Notes under the pieces: generated by a model
The model's input: the letters and a program-made list of their open reading frames with translations, nothing else
What the model was told of the DNA's origin: nothing
Databases searched by the model: none
IMG/VR virus record: IMGVR_UViG_3300017730_000001
Location: 1-64,000 of that record
Length of the DNA stretch: 64,000 nt
Strand: one strand, 5' to 3'
Origin: a virus
Made by a program: the position numbers and the translations under genes
Shown: positions 3,784 through 59,659 of the stretch, piece by piece
Position numbering within the stretch: the stretch's first letter is position 1
Layout: every line of letters starts with the position of its first letter

Positions 3784-4015
3784 TATCTAGTTTTCTTTCG
3801 CCTATTGTTTCATTCCAAAAGTTGTCTATTGACTTTTTCTTACCATCTAGTTCTATATGGGGTAAAGTCTTATCAGTCTTATAGAAGTCTAACCCCAATA
3901 CATACACCCTCACCTCGAACTCTTCTCGGTTCAATGAATTACAGATATGTTTCAATCTCAAATCCATTGCATCCCAATCTCGTTCTCTCTGTAGATAAAG
4001 GTGTACAATTCTCAT
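3761..4015 (-). CDS. Uncharacterised 84-residue protein
   Basis: No confident family. The protein reads as beta-alpha-beta with LPHIELDGKKKSIDNF, vaguely like the cis-proline half of a thioredoxin fold, and it is coupled (ATGA overlap) to the glutaredoxin gene upstream, so a redox role is conceivable. The N terminus (MRIVHLYLQRERDWDAM) has no CxxC. Coding status is supported by tight packing on both sides. Confidence 0.5.
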   Translation of the reverse strand: MRIVHLYLQRERDWDAMDLRLKHICNSLNREEFEVRVYVLGLDFYKTDKTLPHIELDGKKKSIDNFWNETIGERKLDNGDLLQE

Positions 4016-4236
4016 TTGTTGTTATGCCACTCAAGTAGTTCTGTATACCCACCAATAGATTCTTCGTTCACTTTAATCTGAGGAAATGTTCTTGCAGTTG
4101 GAAATGTATTCATCATCTCTTCTCTGTCAAAATCTGTACCTAGTGATTTGTATACAAAGTCATACCCTTGTTGTTCACATAATTTTTTCGCCATATCACA
4201 ATATGGGCATTGTGTTTTTCCATATATTTCTATCAT
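4012..4236 (-). CDS. nrdC: Glutaredoxin
   Basis: 74 residues, the usual length of a minimal glutaredoxin. The dithiol active site CPYC sits at residues 10-13, the cis-Pro region is TFPQIKV, and the glutathione-binding GG is in ESIGGYTEL. It would reduce ribonucleotide reductase and possibly other thiols with host glutathione. It is transcribed with the membrane cytochrome, nrdB and nrdA, matching the T4 NrdC role, and is coupled by 4-bp overlaps on both sides. Confidence 0.85.
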   Translation of the reverse strand: MIEIYGKTQCPYCDMAKKLCEQQGYDFVYKSLGTDFDREEMMNTFPTARTFPQIKVNEESIGGYTELLEWHNNK

Positions 4237-4676
4237 TTCAACTCCTGTTGTATAAATTTACCTATAGTTTGTATATCTGCATCAGATAACATACCTGCCT
4301 GTGCCCACATGGTAGATGACATTGCACCTACTGTTTCTCTATTCTTATATGCATATAGTCTTTGAGTAATGTAATCACTACTTTGACCTGCAAGTGCTGG
4401 GAAGACTGCCATACCTTGACCTTCTGCACCATGACAGGCGGCACAACCTGACCATAAACTTCTGATTGAACTAAACTCATCTGCATTTGCAAGTTCTTGT
4501 TTCGCCCTTAATATGTCTACACTTGTACCGTTCAATGCAACATAGTCAACATAACACTGACCAGTGCATGAAGTGTTTGATGAGTATCCTGTATATTCTA
4601 AGTTTGGGTATACTTTAAGTGTAAAGAAGGTTGCTATTACTAAACAACCGATTAATGTCATTCCTAATTCTCTCAT
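4233..4676 (-). CDS. Membrane-anchored single-heme cytochrome c
   Basis: 147 residues. An N-terminal hydrophobic helix (about residues 5-22, MTLIGCLVIATFFTLKV) acts as signal or anchor. The heme c attachment motif CAACH is at residues 78-82, followed by GAEGQGMAVFPALAGQ, the pattern of class I cytochrome c553-type domains. A distal methionine (GAMSSTM, residue 119 or 123) can serve as axial ligand. Maturation needs periplasmic export and the host Ccm system. It lies between nrdB and glutaredoxin with ATGA overlaps, so it is not a stray gene. Two cysteines near residues 37-41 (SCTGQC) are unusual. It may shuttle electrons to a terminal oxidase during infection. Confidence 0.8.
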   Translation of the reverse strand: MRELGMTLIGCLVIATFFTLKVYPNLEYTGYSSNTSCTGQCYVDYVALNGTSVDILRAKQELANADEFSSIRSLWSGCAACHGAEGQGMAVFPALAGQSSDYITQRLYAYKNRETVGAMSSTMWAQAGMLSDADIQTIGKFIQQELK

Positions 4677-5770
4677 AATGTAAAATTGTCAAATGTGTTA
4701 TCATCGACATCTTGTTTAATACCACCAATGACATAAGATTCAATCTCCGTCTCTTGGGGTGCGTTTTGTAATCCTCTACTGTTAAACCAATGTTGTGTCC
4801 ATGGTAAAGGGTTGTTAGTTGAAGAGACATTGAATATTGGGTCTAAACCAATCGCCCTAAGTCTCTTATTACAAATGTATTCTATGTAATTACCAAGTAA
4901 TGGTATTGATAAACCAATCATAGAACCCTCTCTGAACAAGAACTCTGCCCATTCTTTCTCTTGGGCGACTGCATCTTCATACATTGAGTACACTTCTGAT
5001 TCACAATCTTTCATAACTTTATGCATGAGTGAGTCGTTTTCTTGATTCTTATAACATTTAAGTATGTGTTGAGTGATTGCAAGGTGTTGTGCTTCATCTC
5101 TGGAAATGAATGAGATAATCTTCGCACTGCCTTCCATGAGTTTGAGTTCACCAAATGCAAAACTACAGGCGAATGATACAAAGAATCTTACACCCTCTAG
5201 TATGTTGACTGATATCAATGCAAGATACAATGCCTTATACAGGTCATAGTCATCTACTTTTAGACCTAACAATCTTCTACGACCAAGTTCAATGAAGTGG
5301 TCATACTTCTCTGTCACCATCTCTGCCCTCTTAACGATTGCAGGTTCATCTATAATCGTATCGAATATATCACTAGGGTCACTATAGATGTTCTTTATAA
5401 TGTGAGTATAACTTCTACTATGAATAGTCTCCATGAAGTCCCATGTGATAATACACGACTCAAGTTCAGGTAGAGTGACAAACGGTAAAAATGCTATGGA
5501 TGGCGCTCTGCCTTGAACTGAGTCAAGTAAAGTTTGATATCTTAAGTTAGATGTGAATATATGTTTTTGTGCATCTGTTAGTTGTTGGTAATCACTTCTA
5601 TCTTTCTGTAGTGATACTTCTTCTGGTCTCCAGAAGAATCCTAATTGTGTCTGAGTGAGTTTATCAAATATCGGATACTTGAACTCATCGAATCTTTGTG
5701 TGTTTAATTCTTCGCCAAAGAATATCTTGTTCTTTGTGAAGTCAATATTTTTCTTATTAAAAACTGTCAT
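4673..5770 (-). CDS. nrdB: Ribonucleoside-diphosphate reductase, beta subunit
   Basis: A 365-residue class Ia R2 subunit. The diiron ligands are recognisable in WDFMETIHSRSY (E and H, with the radical tyrosine two residues after the RS), EGVRFF and SRDEAQHL. It makes the tyrosyl radical that NrdA uses to reduce ribonucleotides for phage DNA synthesis. The length is normal and the C-terminal tail (DDNTFDNFTL) matches the acidic/aromatic NrdA-docking peptide. It is coupled to the cytochrome gene by a 4-bp overlap and abuts the oxygenase-like gene. Confidence 0.93.
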   Translation of the reverse strand: MTVFNKKNIDFTKNKIFFGEELNTQRFDEFKYPIFDKLTQTQLGFFWRPEEVSLQKDRSDYQQLTDAQKHIFTSNLRYQTLLDSVQGRAPSIAFLPFVTLPELESCIITWDFMETIHSRSYTHIIKNIYSDPSDIFDTIIDEPAIVKRAEMVTEKYDHFIELGRRRLLGLKVDDYDLYKALYLALISVNILEGVRFFVSFACSFAFGELKLMEGSAKIISFISRDEAQHLAITQHILKCYKNQENDSLMHKVMKDCESEVYSMYEDAVAQEKEWAEFLFREGSMIGLSIPLLGNYIEYICNKRLRAIGLDPIFNVSSTNNPLPWTQHWFNSRGLQNAPQETEIESYVIGGIKQDVDDNTFDNFTL

Positions 5771-6705
5771 TATCTCTTACTCTCTATTTCTTCTAAATCA
5801 TCATAGTAATTTACGAATTGCCCATAATCTGTGGCATAGTATTTATCATTAAAGATTTTTGATTGTTCGCCATATGTGTCATTGTCATTTGACCATCTAT
5901 GTTCTCTACCATCTAGGTTTAATGATGTCTTAGGGCGTCTTTCATCGCCATGATGAAAGTCTGGTATATGTTGCATCATAGAATTTGAATTCACAAAATG
6001 CGAAAATATATGATAACTGTAATCACCTAAGAATTCATCTCTCCAATGTGGTATGTTAGGACCTTGATACAATAATATATCACCAGGTTCTAAGTCAACT
6101 GCAATACAATTATTCTTTAGTCTGTCTCTATGATTAAAATCTTGTGATTCATTCTTAACTTGTTCTGCATCTACACCTGCATAGTTCTTATCATTTCTCA
6201 ACCATATTGTCCATGGTGTGTTGTCGTCTGTTTTGTAATCTAAACACAATGTTGCACTGACCTCACATGAAGGTCTATCAGTATGTGAACCAAGATAGGC
6301 ACCTCTAACATACTTTCTGGTGAATGAATATGTCTCTTCTAAAGTCATGTCAAAACAGTCTTTTAGTTTCTCATGTATGTAATGAGACAATGCATTACCC
6401 CATGGCGAACAATACTTTCCAGAACTCGTTCCCCTAGATGATTGGGGGTTCTTATATGTAATGTCATGTGTTTCTAATGTGGTTGCAGTATCGGTGTATT
6501 CTGCTGATTTCCACACATCCATCGCAAAGGTAATCATGTGTTGTGGTAAGAAGTCTCTGACAACAACATATTTGTTCTTCATAAACTGCCATGTCATTGG
6601 GTTTGTTTTACCCCTAAGTGTAGCAGATTGTTGGTCTTTCCACTTAGCGATATTCTCGTCTACACACTTATATTCTATAGTTTTTTCATCAAATGGCACA
6701 GGCAT
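5770..6705 (-). CDS. 2OG-Fe(II) oxygenase-like protein between nrdA and nrdB
   Basis: About 311 residues from the ATG at 6705 (MPVPFDEKTIEY). The GGAG upstream and the overlap with the nrdA stop favour this start over the longer open frame to 6813. A candidate facial triad is visible: SHTDRPSCEVSATLCL (HxD), a distal HWRDEF after GDILLYQGPNIP, and SYHIFSHF. This is the layout of 2OG oxygenases acting on unknown substrates. It splits the nrdA-nrdB pair, which suggests nucleotide- or redox-linked work, but that is inference. Confidence 0.65.
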   Translation of the reverse strand: MPVPFDEKTIEYKCVDENIAKWKDQQSATLRGKTNPMTWQFMKNKYVVVRDFLPQHMITFAMDVWKSAEYTDTATTLETHDITYKNPQSSRGTSSGKYCSPWGNALSHYIHEKLKDCFDMTLEETYSFTRKYVRGAYLGSHTDRPSCEVSATLCLDYKTDDNTPWTIWLRNDKNYAGVDAEQVKNESQDFNHRDRLKNNCIAVDLEPGDILLYQGPNIPHWRDEFLGDYSYHIFSHFVNSNSMMQHIPDFHHGDERRPKTSLNLDGREHRWSNDNDTYGEQSKIFNDKYYATDYGQFVNYYDDLEEIESKR

Positions 6706-8980
6706 CGCAGTCTTCATCTCCTTCTTCAATTTGTGATGGTGCAAGTTCATCTTGTACAACATCTTCGACTTTACCATCCATAGTATTCTGGTAGTAAGAA
6801 GTCTTCCATCCATATTTATAGGTGTTCAATAAGTCTTTCGCCATTACTGACACAGGTACTTCATTGTTAGGGTATTGTTCTGGATTATATGACCAGTTAC
6901 CACTAATACCTTGGTCAAAGAACTTCTGCATCACTGCAACTACATTGATATAACCAGTGTTGTCTGGCATATCCCATAGCAATGTGTATGCACTCTTAAG
7001 AGTAGAATACTGAGGCACTATCTGTTTCAATGTACCTTTCTTACTCTTCTTAACTGAGAGATGGTCTCTAGGTGGTTCAATACCATTAGTTGCATTACAT
7101 ACAACTGAAGACGATTCACTTGGCATTTGTGCTGTAAGTGTTGAGTGTCTTAAACCATGAGTCAATATCTCTGCCCTTAAATATTCCCAATCTCTAGTAT
7201 ATACTGGTTTCACAATTGAGTCAACATCTTTTTTGTATGTGTCAATTGGTAATAAACCTTGTGCATACTTAGTTCTGTCGAAGTAGTCACATTTACCCTT
7301 TTCTTTTGCAAGTTGATTTGATGCCCTTAGTAAGTAGTATTGAAATCTCTCAGTCAAGTCATGAACTAGTTGCCATGCCTCTGGATCCGAATACTTGACT
7401 CTATGTTTTGCAAGATAATGTGCAAGACCAATATACCCTATACCAAGACTTCTTCTTGCGAGTGTCGACATCTCTGCCGCCTTTACAGGATACTCTTGAT
7501 AATCAATCAGTTCTTCTAAACCCCTCACTGCAAGTTCACATATGTCTTGTAGTTCATCATCTTTAACTACACCCACATTGACAGCACTCAATATACAAAG
7601 TGCAATCTCACCCCCATGGTCATCAATGTGGTCTATTGGGTCTGTTGGCAATGTTATCTCTTGACATAGATTACTCATGTTTACTTTATCAGTAAATGAA
7701 CTATGAGTATTACAATGGTCAATGTTCATAATATAGATTCTGACAGTCTCCGCTCTTTCTTTTAATAAATCTGTAATCAATTCTCTTGCACTAACTTTTC
7801 TTTTAGGTACTGAAGTCGCTCTCTCATACTTCTCATAGAGTTCATCAAACTCTGGCGTACCAAATGCATCATATAAACCAGGTACTTCATGTGGTGAGAA
7901 TAGAGTAATGTCTTCGTTCTTTAAGAATCTCTGATAGAACAATTCTGATAACTGAATACTGTAATCTAGTTTTCTAACTCTATTGTCTTCTGTACCCTTG
8001 TTGTTCTTTAAGACTATAATGTCTTCTATCTCTTGGTGCCAGATAGGGAAATGAACTGTAGCAGAACCCCCTCTTACACCATTCTGAGTACAACATCTTA
8101 CTGTTGATTCGAATTTCTTTAAGAATGGAATGACACCAGTATGTTGTACTTCACCCCCTCTTATCTTTGCACCTAAACCTCTGATACGACCTGCATTGAT
8201 ACCAATACCTGCCCTTTGTGCAACATATCGACCAATCGCCATATCAGATGCAAATAATGAGTCTAGTGAATCATCTGTATCGACCAGAACACATGATGCA
8301 AACTGTTTCAATGGTGTTCTAACACCTGCCATGACTGGCGTTGGTATATTAATCTTAAACATACTCACTGCATCATAGTATCTACGAACATATAGTAATC
8401 TATCGTCTGATTCATAGTCTTGAAACAATGTCATTGCAATCAACATGTACATGAACTGAGGCGTTTCAAATAGTGTACCTGTTGACCTATCTTGAACCAA
8501 ATACTTATCTACGACTTGTTGTAGACCTGCATATGTAAAGTCAAAGTCTCTACTATGTCTTAGATATGAATTGAGTTTCTTTAGTTCTTTGTCTGAGTAT
8601 TTCTCTACTAGGTCTTTCGTGTATAGACCTTTGTCTATGTTTCTCTCAATCAAGTCTTGTAGGGGTGGATAAATCTCTGAGTCTTTCCACTTGGTATTGA
8701 ATACTTGTTTCTGAATACCAAACAATAACAGTCTGGCAGCAACGAATTGGTAGTTAGGATTCTCTAGTGATATCAAATCACTTGCACTCTTCACTAGAAT
8801 CTTTTGAATCTCTTTTGTGGTGATACCATCAAAGAATTGTAGACCACTATTCATCTCTACTGAAGATTCAGAAACACCATTGATGCCTCTGCAAGACTTC
8901 TCTACCATTACATGTATCTTATCTAAATCGATAATTGATTTTGTGCCGTCACTCTTTATAACATTTATTTCTGCGTTCAT
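6689..8980 (-). CDS. nrdA: Ribonucleoside-diphosphate reductase, alpha subunit
   Basis: A 763-residue class Ia R1 subunit. An ATP-cone-like N-terminal domain (SDGTKSIIDLDKIHVMVEK) is followed by the catalytic barrel with the redox cysteine (FASCVLVD), the active-site loop NLCQEITLPT, ESSSVVCNATNGIEPPR, and a C-terminal CDAC pair that exchanges electrons with glutaredoxin. It reduces ribonucleoside diphosphates to deoxynucleotides. A ribosome binding site (GGAG) precedes the start. Size and motifs are normal. Confidence 0.95.
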   Translation of the reverse strand: MNAEINVIKSDGTKSIIDLDKIHVMVEKSCRGINGVSESSVEMNSGLQFFDGITTKEIQKILVKSASDLISLENPNYQFVAARLLLFGIQKQVFNTKWKDSEIYPPLQDLIERNIDKGLYTKDLVEKYSDKELKKLNSYLRHSRDFDFTYAGLQQVVDKYLVQDRSTGTLFETPQFMYMLIAMTLFQDYESDDRLLYVRRYYDAVSMFKINIPTPVMAGVRTPLKQFASCVLVDTDDSLDSLFASDMAIGRYVAQRAGIGINAGRIRGLGAKIRGGEVQHTGVIPFLKKFESTVRCCTQNGVRGGSATVHFPIWHQEIEDIIVLKNNKGTEDNRVRKLDYSIQLSELFYQRFLKNEDITLFSPHEVPGLYDAFGTPEFDELYEKYERATSVPKRKVSARELITDLLKERAETVRIYIMNIDHCNTHSSFTDKVNMSNLCQEITLPTDPIDHIDDHGGEIALCILSAVNVGVVKDDELQDICELAVRGLEELIDYQEYPVKAAEMSTLARRSLGIGYIGLAHYLAKHRVKYSDPEAWQLVHDLTERFQYYLLRASNQLAKEKGKCDYFDRTKYAQGLLPIDTYKKDVDSIVKPVYTRDWEYLRAEILTHGLRHSTLTAQMPSESSSVVCNATNGIEPPRDHLSVKKSKKGTLKQIVPQYSTLKSAYTLLWDMPDNTGYINVVAVMQKFFDQGISGNWSYNPEQYPNNEVPVSVMAKDLLNTYKYGWKTSYYQNTMDGKVEDVVQDELAPSQIEEGDEDCDACAI

Positions 8981-55740: not shown

Positions 55741-56973
55741 TTAATCATTATACTCTGAAGACTCTGAATCGTCAACAGGGTTTTCTAAATGAACACCATC
55801 GTCAACTTTGGTGTAGAGGTCTAGAACAGCATTTCTAGTTTCTTCATCGAATCTTGAAATACACATTGTAATCGCCTTGAGTTTGTCACCAAACATCTTG
55901 TAAGCACTGACAATGTGAACAAGTCTTCTTGTTGTAATCACATCATCAATGGCGCCTTCATAATAAGTTTTTCTGATTATGTCAGCCCAATCAACTAGTT
56001 TCTTAACGAAGTCTTCATCGACATCGCCAGTCAAAGCCATTTCTTGTTTCAGAATATTTCTCTCAGTAGTCACTGGTGGATATTCTTGTTGCATAGTGAT
56101 AGCGAATCTTTCAAGCATCGCCTCATTCATGATTTGAGTACCAATGAACTTGCCATCTTCAGACCCTTGGCCCTTGGTGTTGGCAGTAGCGACAACAGTA
56201 AACCCTGGTGTCGGTGTGACCCACTCACCAGTTTTCTTGATAAGGTAACCTTTGCCCTCAAGAACTGATTGTAGACACATCATTTTGTTAGACCCTAAGT
56301 CTACTTCGTCAAGAAGTAATACAGCGCCTTTTCTCATTGCCTTGATAACTGGACCTTCTCTGAAGATGATGTTACCATTCTGCAAAGTGTGACCACCCAT
56401 TAGGTCGTCTTCGTCTGTCTCAATAGTGATATTGACTCTGAAGAGTTCTCTATTCAATTGAGCACAAGTTTGTTCAATCATTAATGTTTTACCATTACCT
56501 GAAAGACCAGTCACAAAGAAAGGGAAGAACATTTTAGATTTGATTATGTTCTTGACATCTTTAGCATGACCAAACGGTACATAGTTTGGCATTTTTTCTG
56601 GAATGATTTTTACATTATCATCAATCATGTTGACCGAAGCAGTAGCAGCGGCAACTGGCATTTGTTGAACTTGAGGTGCAACTTTTGGAACTGTTAAAGG
56701 TTCTGGTTTAGAAACTGCAACAGTCGTACCGTTATTATCAATCGCAAGGATTGGTGTTAGATTGAAAACAGCACCATCTTTAAAATTGTACCTGTTTGAT
56801 TTCAACCAGTATGGAAAATGGCCCAATGAATTGAACTGCTCTTTCGAGAATTGCAATTGATTCGGATATTTCTCCTTTAATGCCTGAATGAATTCTTTCC
56901 TGTCAGGTGTCAGGTGGAAATTTTTATCTCCCAGATTTATCGACTCTGTTGGGTCGTATGTCCACTTACTCAT
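55741..56973 (-). CDS. cobS: MoxR/CobS-type AAA+ ATPase
   Basis: 410 residues. The N-terminal region resembles CobS (LKEKYPNQLQFSKEQFNSLG), with a Pro/Val/Ala linker. The AAA+ core has Walker A VTGLSGNGKTLMIEQ, Walker B VLLLDEVDLGS, and FTVVATANTKG with an arginine finger later. MoxR ATPases remodel partner proteins with VWA domains; the VWA/HExxH gene lies next but one. The cobS name follows cyanophage annotation; no evidence links it to cobalamin here. It has its own early promoter and Shine-Dalgarno. Confidence 0.85.
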   Translation of the reverse strand: MSKWTYDPTESINLGDKNFHLTPDRKEFIQALKEKYPNQLQFSKEQFNSLGHFPYWLKSNRYNFKDGAVFNLTPILAIDNNGTTVAVSKPEPLTVPKVAPQVQQMPVAAATASVNMIDDNVKIIPEKMPNYVPFGHAKDVKNIIKSKMFFPFFVTGLSGNGKTLMIEQTCAQLNRELFRVNITIETDEDDLMGGHTLQNGNIIFREGPVIKAMRKGAVLLLDEVDLGSNKMMCLQSVLEGKGYLIKKTGEWVTPTPGFTVVATANTKGQGSEDGKFIGTQIMNEAMLERFAITMQQEYPPVTTERNILKQEMALTGDVDEDFVKKLVDWADIIRKTYYEGAIDDVITTRRLVHIVSAYKMFGDKLKAITMCISRFDEETRNAVLDLYTKVDDGVHLENPVDDSESSEYND

Positions 56974-57047: not shown

Positions 57048-57281
57048 CTATTCAATTTCTTTTAGTAATCTTTCCATGTCAATTGCAATAGAGGTCTTCT
57101 GACCTTTTCTCATTGTGGTGTATGAGTCGTTGTTAACCCAAAACCTAAATGCCTTACATTCAACCTCTTCTTCGCCACAAGCCTTTTGCCTAGGGCAATC
57201 AAACTTTACGCAAGGTCCTTTACCGACCTGTTGTATGGCGTCTTGAAATTTATCAATATTAATAGTACCTATCATTTCCAT
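57048..57281 (-). CDS. 77-residue cysteine-containing protein
   Basis: MEMIGTINIDKFQDAIQQVG then CVKFDCPRQKACGEEEVECK, a four-cysteine cluster that could bind zinc or Fe-S. It sits between the VWA and MoxR genes and overlaps the former by 1 bp. Possible adapter of the pair. No family recognised. Confidence 0.55.
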   Translation of the reverse strand: MEMIGTINIDKFQDAIQQVGKGPCVKFDCPRQKACGEEEVECKAFRFWVNNDSYTTMRKGQKTSIAIDMERLLKEIE

Positions 57282-59659
57282 TATGCAATCTCCTTTATAA
57301 ATTCGTTAGTTAGAAATCTTGATGTTGACTTGCCTTTCTGATTTCTTTTGAAAGCGGCAGTCACTCTGTTTTTGTTTGCACCAATGAACTCTTCGCCAAG
57401 TTCATCTTCGCCTGTCGTAGCAAGATTAGATGCAGTGGTCAAGAACAATTTGTTGTAACCCTTGGTGTCAACTACTACACCTGATTTTCTCATATCTCTC
57501 CACAACCCATCAACTTCTTCCCAAAAGTTTGGTATAATGTATTCACCCATTTGTTGAAAGTCTCTTTTCTTGGTGAAGACAAAGTAACCAGTCACGGTCA
57601 CATTACAAGTTTCTGATAACCACTCTAAGATGTTTTGAGTTTTCTCGAAGTCGTTTCTACCATATCTTGAATTAGTCGTGTAAAGGAAGTTCTTGTTGAT
57701 GTATGGGTCAATGAAACTTCTCTCTCTCTGAGCAGACCAGTAGTAATCATCGCCTGCCTGAGCCTTATAGTCAGCAGACTCAACTTCTGATTCGTCAAAG
57801 AAGTCACTTCTGAAACTGAACCCATCGGTGATGATTGTTAGAATTGATTTCTCAATACCATACTGTCTGTTGAACTCTGGTAAGAATTTTCTCATAGCAA
57901 CTAAACATTCGTCAAGTGGTGTACCACCCAATCTGTAATTATCAGGACAGCAGTATCTTGAGAATCTTGAATCACCCCAATATGAAGTACCTGATTCCCA
58001 TTCTTGAATAGAACTGAATACTGAATTGTACTCTTCGATTAGTTTCTGACCTTTCGGTGAACCAGCCCAGCAATCATGAAGTTCATTGTGCATGTACCCA
58101 ACAAGGATACAAGATAAGTAATCTAACATCTCTGAATATTTTCTATTAGATATTTCGTTAGACATAATCTCAACAAGTTTTGCCTTGCCACTTGAGTAGT
58201 CATATCTGTCTTGTCTTACAATAGAATCTGAGAAGAGATATACTCTGTAAGGAATGTTTACTTTTCTACAGAACTCTGAAAGTATAATTGATTGTTCTAA
58301 CATGTCAGCAGCTTCGTTGTGAATAGAACCAGACCAGTCAAGTAAAACATTGACACCATGGTTCTTGCCATCTGGAATGTAAGTGACTCTTTTGAAGATA
58401 TCATCTACAATCTGATACTTAGCAAGTCTATTCATATCAAGGTCACCACTAGTGCCTGTATATGCCTTTGCACTTCTATGTGCATTTTGTCTTAACTCAA
58501 ACTCTTTTGCCATATGGGCAACAATCTTTTTGTTTTTGTTTTGAAGATGTTTTCTGTAATGTTTACCAAGAACTAAAGTATTACTTCTCTCGTTGACAGT
58601 TTCTTGTTTTCTCTCTTCAGTGTAGTATCTTGGGTCTTCTTTTATCAACTTGTCATAGTCAACACCAGCAAACCAACTCTGCCAATCAGATGTAATTTGT
58701 TTGTTGTCATAAATCATTGCATCTATATCAGTACTTTTGAATCTAGTTCTCAAATCAATATTAGTTTTGATGTTTGCCTTTTCGTCAACAAAATCATCTT
58801 CATTATTATGTGCATAGTGTTCAGTGATTGACTCTCTGGCGCCATCTAATTCATCATATTTGCCATCGAACTTGCCACCCTTGGCGCCAGATTCTACAAG
58901 AGTCTCTTCAACTTTATCACCCTCTTCTTCTATGTCACCCTCTGTATTTGATTTGTATTCTTCTTCTTCACTCTCTGGTTCATCATCTGACTCTTCACCA
59001 CTCATTGGAGATGATTCAGTCTCGTCTTCTTCATCGCCATCTTCTGATTCAGGTATTTGCATCTTAGAAAGTTTTTCGTCTTCTTCATCTCTCTCTTCAT
59101 TTTCTTTAGAGTATTCGTAGATTGAATTTGCACATTCAACAACTTCTTCCCAAGTCTTACAGTCTTCTGCCATTTGCAAGAATTCTTGTTCGGTGTCATT
59201 TAGTTTGATGTTGACTCTAGAACCACACTTAGTAATAAGATTGATTTTGTCAATCAATGCAAGTTCTTGTAAGTTTCTACCCTTGATGCCGAAGAAGTTT
59301 TTTTCCATAAGTTCATTGTATGCCTTAAAGAAAGAAGTTCTCAACCCTTGATATTTTTGTTTGATTGCCTTTTCGATTCTCACATCTTCTACAACATTAA
59401 GATAACCCTTAAGAGTTCTATTCTCAGTTAGTGTAGAGTGAAGTCCCTCGTAAGGAGTATTCAGTGCATGACCAACTTCGTGTCCCATGAACAAGTCATA
59501 TAGTTCAGGAGAAATATCATCTTTGAAAGTAGGACAAGCAAGTACCCTATTCTTAACATCAAAGTATGCAGTCGGTATTTTTTTATGTACAATCGTAAGA
59601 TTTTCTGTTGCCATTAATCTTGCGAGAGAGTCTTTTTGGTTTTTAAGTTTTTCTGTCAT
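57281..59659 (-). CDS. VWA-domain protein with N-terminal HExxH (CobT-like partner)
   Basis: 792 residues. N-terminal zincin-like motif LFMGHEVGHALNTP (HEVGH at 60-64), then an acidic low-complexity stretch (about 195-270, EEDETESSPMSGEESDDEPE). A C-terminal von Willebrand A domain follows (about 385-600) with MIDAS VNVLLDWSGSIHNEA and later TIITDGFS. It is the likely partner of the MoxR ATPase. HExxH plus VWA suggests an ATPase-activated protease or chaperone. The promoter's -10 ends 6 nt before the ATG, predicting a leaderless mRNA. Confidence 0.8.
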   Translation of the reverse strand: MTEKLKNQKDSLARLMATENLTIVHKKIPTAYFDVKNRVLACPTFKDDISPELYDLFMGHEVGHALNTPYEGLHSTLTENRTLKGYLNVVEDVRIEKAIKQKYQGLRTSFFKAYNELMEKNFFGIKGRNLQELALIDKINLITKCGSRVNIKLNDTEQEFLQMAEDCKTWEEVVECANSIYEYSKENEERDEEDEKLSKMQIPESEDGDEEDETESSPMSGEESDDEPESEEEEYKSNTEGDIEEEGDKVEETLVESGAKGGKFDGKYDELDGARESITEHYAHNNEDDFVDEKANIKTNIDLRTRFKSTDIDAMIYDNKQITSDWQSWFAGVDYDKLIKEDPRYYTEERKQETVNERSNTLVLGKHYRKHLQNKNKKIVAHMAKEFELRQNAHRSAKAYTGTSGDLDMNRLAKYQIVDDIFKRVTYIPDGKNHGVNVLLDWSGSIHNEAADMLEQSIILSEFCRKVNIPYRVYLFSDSIVRQDRYDYSSGKAKLVEIMSNEISNRKYSEMLDYLSCILVGYMHNELHDCWAGSPKGQKLIEEYNSVFSSIQEWESGTSYWGDSRFSRYCCPDNYRLGGTPLDECLVAMRKFLPEFNRQYGIEKSILTIITDGFSFRSDFFDESEVESADYKAQAGDDYYWSAQRERSFIDPYINKNFLYTTNSRYGRNDFEKTQNILEWLSETCNVTVTGYFVFTKKRDFQQMGEYIIPNFWEEVDGLWRDMRKSGVVVDTKGYNKLFLTTASNLATTGEDELGEEFIGANKNRVTAAFKRNQKGKSTSRFLTNEFIKEIA

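Follow-up and report, generated by a model that had tools for sequence, protein, structure and literature searches.

The gene considered here encodes a small cytochrome c and lies on the minus strand, which the sequence-only reading had left unmentioned, of a 64,000-nucleotide stretch of viral DNA (the window), itself part of a 114,386-base IMG/VR record. It belongs to the same gene run as nrdA, with nrdB before it and a glutaredoxin gene (grx) after it (Table 1). The plus strand reads TCAT at both 4673-4676 and 4233-4236, which on the minus strand is an ATGA at each cytochrome junction, and the overlaps with nrdB and with grx that had been described from the letters alone were thereby confirmed. 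When the ORFs of 40 aa or more in all six frames were scanned, the sole CxxCH motif of the 64-kb window lay at 4445, in the cytochrome ORF. The glutaredoxin ORF starts without a signal sequence. Contamination of the assembly by host DNA was ruled out, since the cytochrome gene overlaps the phage nrdB and grx and occurs in many phage contigs.

Table 1. The cytochrome gene, its parts and other genes discussed, in window coordinates.
Feature	Position	Strand	Details
Phage cytochrome c gene	4233..4676	-	147 aa, ATG start
N-terminal hydrophobic segment, presumed uncleaved membrane anchor	4602..4676	-	residues 1-25; AF2 helix 2-29
CxxxC (CTGQC)	4554..4568	-	residues 37-41; Cys37, Cys41
CAACH heme-attachment site	4431..4445	-	residues 78-82 (C78, C81, H82)
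Met123, presumed sixth heme ligand	4308..4310	-	ligand role inferred; aligns with Vibrio c554 Met
nrdB, upstream neighbour	4673..5770	-	Pfam Ribonuc_red_sm 1e-54; PHROG small subunit
Glutaredoxin (grx), downstream neighbour	4012..4236	-	Pfam Glutaredoxin 2e-11
nrdA, same gene run as cytochrome	6689..8980	-	Pfam Ribonuc_red_lgC 6e-132
S5, 138-aa protein with hydrophobic helices	53173..53589	-	very conserved, invariant His81

Some other window genes bear labels of their own. The ORF at 5770-6813 matches a PHROG called ‘ferrochelatase’ (4.8e-34), yet its HTD...H pattern reads like a 2OG-Fe(II) oxygenase; it had no Pfam or PDB match, and the label is doubtful. Ferrochelatase-labelled genes are also reported in a passage of a pelagiphage paper (PMC9599517). 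An ATPase at 55741-56973 has the PHROG label ‘porphyrin biosynthesis’ and reads like CobS, and it adjoins an ORF at 57281-59659 that reads like a CobT/VWA protein.

The mono-heme CAACH protein proposed from the sequence proved to be real and to be a class I cytochrome c. Its C-terminal half matches the Pfam profile Cytochrom_C (PF00034) with an E-value of 7.2e-9 and 37.3 bits against a cut-off of 21.3, and the solved structures that match it best are 8yts (4.4e-15), 1h1o with its cytochrome c-552 (9.5e-14) and that of Vibrio c554 (2zzs; 2.1e-13). These PDB matches by sequence are carriers of the c554, c552, c4 and c546/556 kinds, and the CxxxC segment lies outside the stretches that match them. 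An AF2 model was built without heme from a 21-row alignment (mean pLDDT 73.4). Its pLDDT is about 60 for residues 111-130 and below 50 at residues 28-39, beside the CxxxC, and at 118-121, which makes the model unreliable for the linker and for the loop that precedes Met123. Residues 67-147 of the model matched 8yts, the Thioalkalivibrio c546/556, at Z 12.2 over 81 residues (2.4 A), 2zzs at Z 10.9 and Pseudomonas nautica c552 (1cno) at Z 10.8, and c554, c552 and c553 entries scored above Z 10. The same residues matched chain K of 8smr, the bc1-cbb3 supercomplex of Pseudomonas aeruginosa, at Z 10.0, and 8smr is listed among the entries that share the cytochrome c4 sequence of 6q2u. Foldseek with the same model found 8yts at E 8e-5, and a BFVD fold search returned nothing at E 0.001 or better. 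PHROGs held no family for the cytochrome, the best of nine weak families across 21 members reaching E 0.038.

With a CxxCH, a presumed distal Met and a predicted cytochrome c fold, the phage protein carries the marks of class I, and its heme domain is an ordinary one of that class. Two narrower assignments were rejected. Cytochrome c4 has two heme domains per chain and the phage protein a single CxxCH, and against the cbb3 oxidase subunit CcoP (TIGR00782) it scored 20.7 bits for a cut-off of 179.95, with one heme motif rather than a diheme arrangement. The c554/c552/c4 group (2zzs, 1cno, 6q2u, 8yts) is alike in heme-domain sequence, predicted fold, CxxCH and distal Met, whereas the phage protein is encoded by a virus and has a single heme domain, preceded by a hydrophobic helix and a linker with the conserved CxxxC.

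Conservation was assessed on 203 loci that yielded 110 distinct proteins. Three were dropped for a length outside 135-185 aa or for containing X, as was a Roseivivax plasmid protein, which left 106 with the window protein included; this set also takes in proteins from loci fetched with queries for S1 and S5, two of the small membrane proteins discussed below. In all 106 of these distinct full-length phage proteins C37, C41, Tyr42, C78, C81, H82, M123 and W124 are kept, and M119 is present in 104 of 107 rows (the 106 and the plasmid protein). The extra CxxxC pair noticed before the heme domain is thus real and kept throughout this set. Broken ligands in relatives, which the sequence-only reading had named as grounds against its proposal, were looked for, and the CxxCH and the presumed axial Met123 were intact throughout. 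The transmembrane anchor it described holds for the window protein and is usual in relatives, but it is not universal: in about 10 of the 106, read by eye, an apparent cleavable signal peptide replaces it (one such start reads ...TIAFA-YNGLEY), and tethering is therefore not essential to the cytochrome. Export would appear to be the common property of the family and tethering the usual one.

The gene is intact and under purifying selection, with a median Nei-Gojobori dN/dS of 0.249 over 2268 pairs with dS of 0.1-1.5; single pairs range from 0.02 to 2.07, as such ratios are noisy in so short a gene. By region, dN/dS is 0.455 in the anchor, 0.286 in the linker and 0.174 in the heme domain.

The genes of the window are T4-like, including nrdA, nrdB, a DNA polymerase, a DnaB-like helicase and an SbcC-like exonuclease. 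The nearest isolates are distant: the window NrdB is 66% identical to that of Pelagibacter phage HTVC008M, in which nrdB is followed by hypothetical proteins, and the polymerase reaches at most 48% among the matches listed and stays below 60% in all 2577 matching records. Judging from these nearest isolates, the bacteria of the carrier viruses are probably marine. Pattern scans of IMG/VR found relatives of the cytochrome encoded by 263 of 267 and 492 of 568 matching stretches, the best 80 of each being retained. Among 50,697 phage records, a set that may lack those closest to the window, there was no cytochrome match at E 0.01. Photosystem reaction-centre genes of the psbA/psbD type (PF00124; control positive in Synechococcus elongatus) occurred in 0 of 36 records, some of which may be fragments, and the usual kind of cyanophage is therefore an unlikely carrier. 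Oxidase subunit I (PF00115) was found in 8 of 14 control genomes and in 0 of the 39 records searched, 36 of them cytochrome-carrying. A phage-encoded oxidase partner is accordingly rejected, and the electron acceptor would be the host's.

In cellular DNA, four matches in bacterial assemblies are nrdB-cytochrome contigs of the phage kind, with grx. Phage contigs of this sort lie in three of the assemblies; the phyla of these three, which are not the expected hosts, were sampled (by record titles Bacteroidota, Planctomycetes and cyanobacteria) and gave matches in 25 of 198, 8 of 199 and 4 of 194 genomes. In each phylum set one matching genome is an assembly that holds the phage contig itself, and the remaining matches listed begin at position 50 or later and thus exclude the CxxxC. 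A tblastn search of plasmids returned 33 records, all below 60% identity and none covering 80% of the query. The scan of bacterial contigs rested on two short phage-conserved patterns and so leaves room for a cellular ancestor.

The 106 distinct proteins fall into several gene contexts, with 63 between nrdB and grx, 22 at a site between a uvsW-type helicase gene and a gp55-like gene, 9 with grx as the sole such neighbour (on fragments, or with the order reversed) and 12 in other places. The names uvsW, gp55 and gp47 come from sequence reading and T4-like gene order. A protein tree of the 106, made by a quick search on 147 columns and with many weak forks, requires no fewer than 6 switches between the nrdB and uvsW contexts, or 13 with a third class, ‘other’, and the strongly supported branches alone force at least 3 changes of the uvsW label. 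The window protein groups among proteins of the uvsW context, at a support of 89 that falls outside the strongly supported branches, and its five nearest tree rows are all of that context. Thirteen loci outside the window phage have window-like synteny; their NrdB is 83-88% identical, against only 62-71% for the cytochrome. Among 48 further loci of the nrd type the medians are 50-51% for NrdA and NrdB and 67% for the cytochrome. For 5.6 kb ending at the nrdB stop the DNA of locus L044 is 95.5% identical to that of the window; there the match breaks off, and the L044 cytochrome keeps 72 of 75 heme-domain residues and 5 of 22 anchor residues. Conversely, L008 and L009, whose gene context differs from that of the window, match the window protein at 25 of 25 residues in the anchor and at 61 and 64 of the 75 in the heme domain. 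These identity patterns make it most likely that anchors and heme domains have been swapped by recombination, and the cytochrome gene is mobile.

Other neighbours of the cytochrome gene were named by sequence reading. At L040 (8001-10614) it stands beside bacterioferritin-, IscS- and IscU-like genes, surroundings that read like an iron-handling neighbourhood, and in L073, L075 and L144 it adjoins a bacterioferritin-like gene. In L132 it adjoins a spanin-like pair; in the window, an overlapping small membrane ORF and lipoprotein-like ORF at 1724-2579 read like an i-spanin/o-spanin pair.

The host's maturation machinery joins heme c to its proteins on the far side of the inner membrane from the cytoplasm, and a cytochrome of this type must therefore act there. 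On the favoured reading an infected cell would export the class I cytochrome c across its inner membrane, the host cytochrome c maturation system would attach the one heme, and in most relatives the single N-terminal helix would hold the protein on the membrane. There it would most likely serve as an extra electron carrier between the host cytochrome bc1 complex and a terminal oxidase, so that respiration and ATP supply might be sustained at a time when host genes are being silenced and DNA precursors produced. The solved relatives are one-electron carriers, and the c4 in 8smr sits within a bc1-oxidase supercomplex, which favours a carrier. We put at about even the chance that the cytochrome is such a carrier for host bc1 and oxidase during infection, exported and in most cases tethered, with export, heme loading, docking and benefit to the phage as inferred steps. 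A possible cellular parallel is offered by the alphaproteobacterial cytochromes cy and CycM, which place a class I heme domain on an N-terminal helix between bc1 and oxidase. In the window protein a hydrophobic N-terminal helix, presumably an uncleaved anchor, precedes the class I domain, about ten of the 106 proteins start with a signal-peptide-like stretch instead, and the phage linker holds the invariant CxxxC.

Small membrane-protein genes near the cytochrome raise another view, that it is a subunit of a phage-made membrane assembly with S1, S3 and in some phages S6, which would dock on or remodel a host respiratory complex. All 22 cases at the uvsW-gp55 site have the genes arranged as S3, cytochrome, S1-type (S6 joins in just 2). 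Of 145 loci, a set fetched by cytochrome queries, not de-duplicated and without the window's own copy, 79 have an S1-type gene no more than 400 nt from the cytochrome gene, before or after it and in many cases overlapping. Among the distinct proteins such adjacency holds for 59 of 106, a count biased upward by loci from S1 and S5 queries. The window phage itself, just beyond the window at record positions 64545-65164 (L231:1545-2164), keeps S3, a 45-aa hydrophobic ORF, an S1-type gene and S6 together, four small overlapping membrane-protein ORFs without a cytochrome, at the very site where other phages place theirs between S3 and S1. The reverse association fails, however: within the fetched 5-kb flanks the cytochrome was found in no more than 37 of the 80 loci that the S1 scan gave, and in 28 of 80 from the scan with S1b (related to S1 by profile comparison, probability 96.7, from few sequences), and three records of 121, 96 and 90 kb have S1-type and S3 genes and no cytochrome. 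In whole-record searches an S1-type gene was present in 25 of 39 records and absent from 14, many records being fragments. It was held by 6 of the 7 searched records of at least 80 kb with a cytochrome, two of these seven having come from S1 queries and one from a query with S5, and by 3 of the 4 found otherwise (G000, G235, G250, G244). Phage records gave no match to S1 (two queries) or S3 (one query), and no profile family was found for S1, S3 or S6, so nothing marks them as respiratory. A joint assembly is, on this balance, unlikely.

Another candidate partner was S5, homologues of which lie directly upstream of the cytochrome gene in six loci (L046, L047, L054, L056, L135 and L136), an adjacency that suggested a partnership. 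This was weakened by a distant S5 homologue in the Methylophilales phages Melnitz, where no cytochrome match was found, and the AF2 model of S5 (mean pLDDT 60) was too poor for use. The S5 gene of the window adjoins a gene that reads like a clamp loader, and in a 250,519-base virus record (L180) an S5 gene occurs together with a cytochrome gene of the present family (E 7.8e-64).

The remaining alternatives turn on what the heme domain and the linker would do. The cytochrome could conceivably divert or block host electron flow, as a competitor or sink that lowers respiration or burns oxygen or excess reductant, since an altered docking face could let a carrier poison the exchange and the CxxxC linker is missing from the matches to solved carriers. 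Yet all heme features are conserved and the match to ordinary carriers is close, which indicates normal electron transfer and makes diversion quite unlikely. The functional part might instead be the CxxxC, acting outside the cytoplasm in thiol-disulfide chemistry or metal binding and exchanging electrons with the heme domain; besides the invariance of both cysteines and Tyr42, all 203 segment matches among the fetched loci also carry CxxCH, though these loci were mostly fetched by cytochrome queries and include many copies of one contig. A structural disulfide would give equal conservation, and no thioredoxin or CuA-type match was among the sequence-search matches listed, so that we regard such a module as distinctly improbable. 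Probably the CxxxC forms a disulfide that shapes the linker, and the segment is the main unexplained feature, for which simple electron shuttling does not account. The sequence-only reading had allowed for a supply of electrons to redox steps during infection. Direct feeding of electrons to the adjacent ribonucleotide reductase or glutaredoxin is suggested by the gene order, the ATGA overlaps and the frequent nrdB-grx placement. It was rejected on topology, because the membrane would separate the cytochrome from these enzymes in any case short of cytoplasmic heme attachment, and the nrd site is not essential, as the gene also occurs at unrelated sites; its probability is close to nil. With NrdAB and glutaredoxin cytosolic, the placement fits shared timing with DNA synthesis rather than an electron hand-off, and the overlaps suggest that the cytochrome is made together with the nucleotide-synthesis proteins.

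Returning to the extra respiratory carrier, a broader form of it is that a group of uncultured T4-like phages builds a small respiratory module of its own. The tethered cytochrome c with its new CxxxC linker, S1, S3 and in some phages S6 would be exchangeable genes, passed between phage lineages and plugged into the bc1-oxidase part of the host chain to sustain its energy supply. We hold this to be doubtful, if conceivable.

Electron-transport genes of cyanophages, such as those for plastocyanin, PTOX and ferredoxin, offer a viral comparison. Many cyanophages encode photosynthetic electron transport proteins, according to PMC5082946. There as here a T4-like phage carries an electron carrier, but the present one is a respiratory-type heme protein, and no reaction-centre gene occurs in the 36 records searched. 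Viral contigs also carry soxD, a sulfane dehydrogenase subunit, and hence a gene for a c-type cytochrome protein; in the part of PMC8190135 concerned, both of two soxD contigs lack the second heme motif and one lacks the first. SoxD is thus an enzyme subunit with motifs missing, whereas the present heme site is intact in all 106 distinct proteins. Sequences of cbb3 oxidase subunit I, likewise a viral respiratory gene of the sea, are reported from Indian Ocean viromes in a section of PMC3474794, in contrast to the absence of subunit I from the records searched here. Aquatic phages are reported to encode a 5-ALA synthase, for tetrapyrroles (PMC11480375), and giant viruses a cytochrome b5 (PMC11814380), and in the relevant portion of a nitrogen-cycle study of oxygen-poor waters no cytochrome carriers were observed in its phages (PMC8115048). 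The word ‘cytochrome’ is absent from the main text of the Melnitz (PMC9004378) and pelagiphage (PMC9599517) papers, and among the matches listed from the open PMC library, outside which most subscription journals fall, there was no paper on a stand-alone phage cytochrome c.

The carriage of an intact cytochrome c gene suggests that these viruses support or tap host respiration. Cyanophages are the best-known carriers of phage genes for electron transport, which in them serve photosynthesis. Here, an intact, selected and repeatedly exchanged carrier of the respiratory type is found on hundreds of uncultured phage contigs, and the protein is small and can be made in ordinary bacteria, so that whether it feeds or drains host respiration is a testable question. 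If the proposed role is true, phages of respiring bacteria would also manage the energy of their hosts directly.
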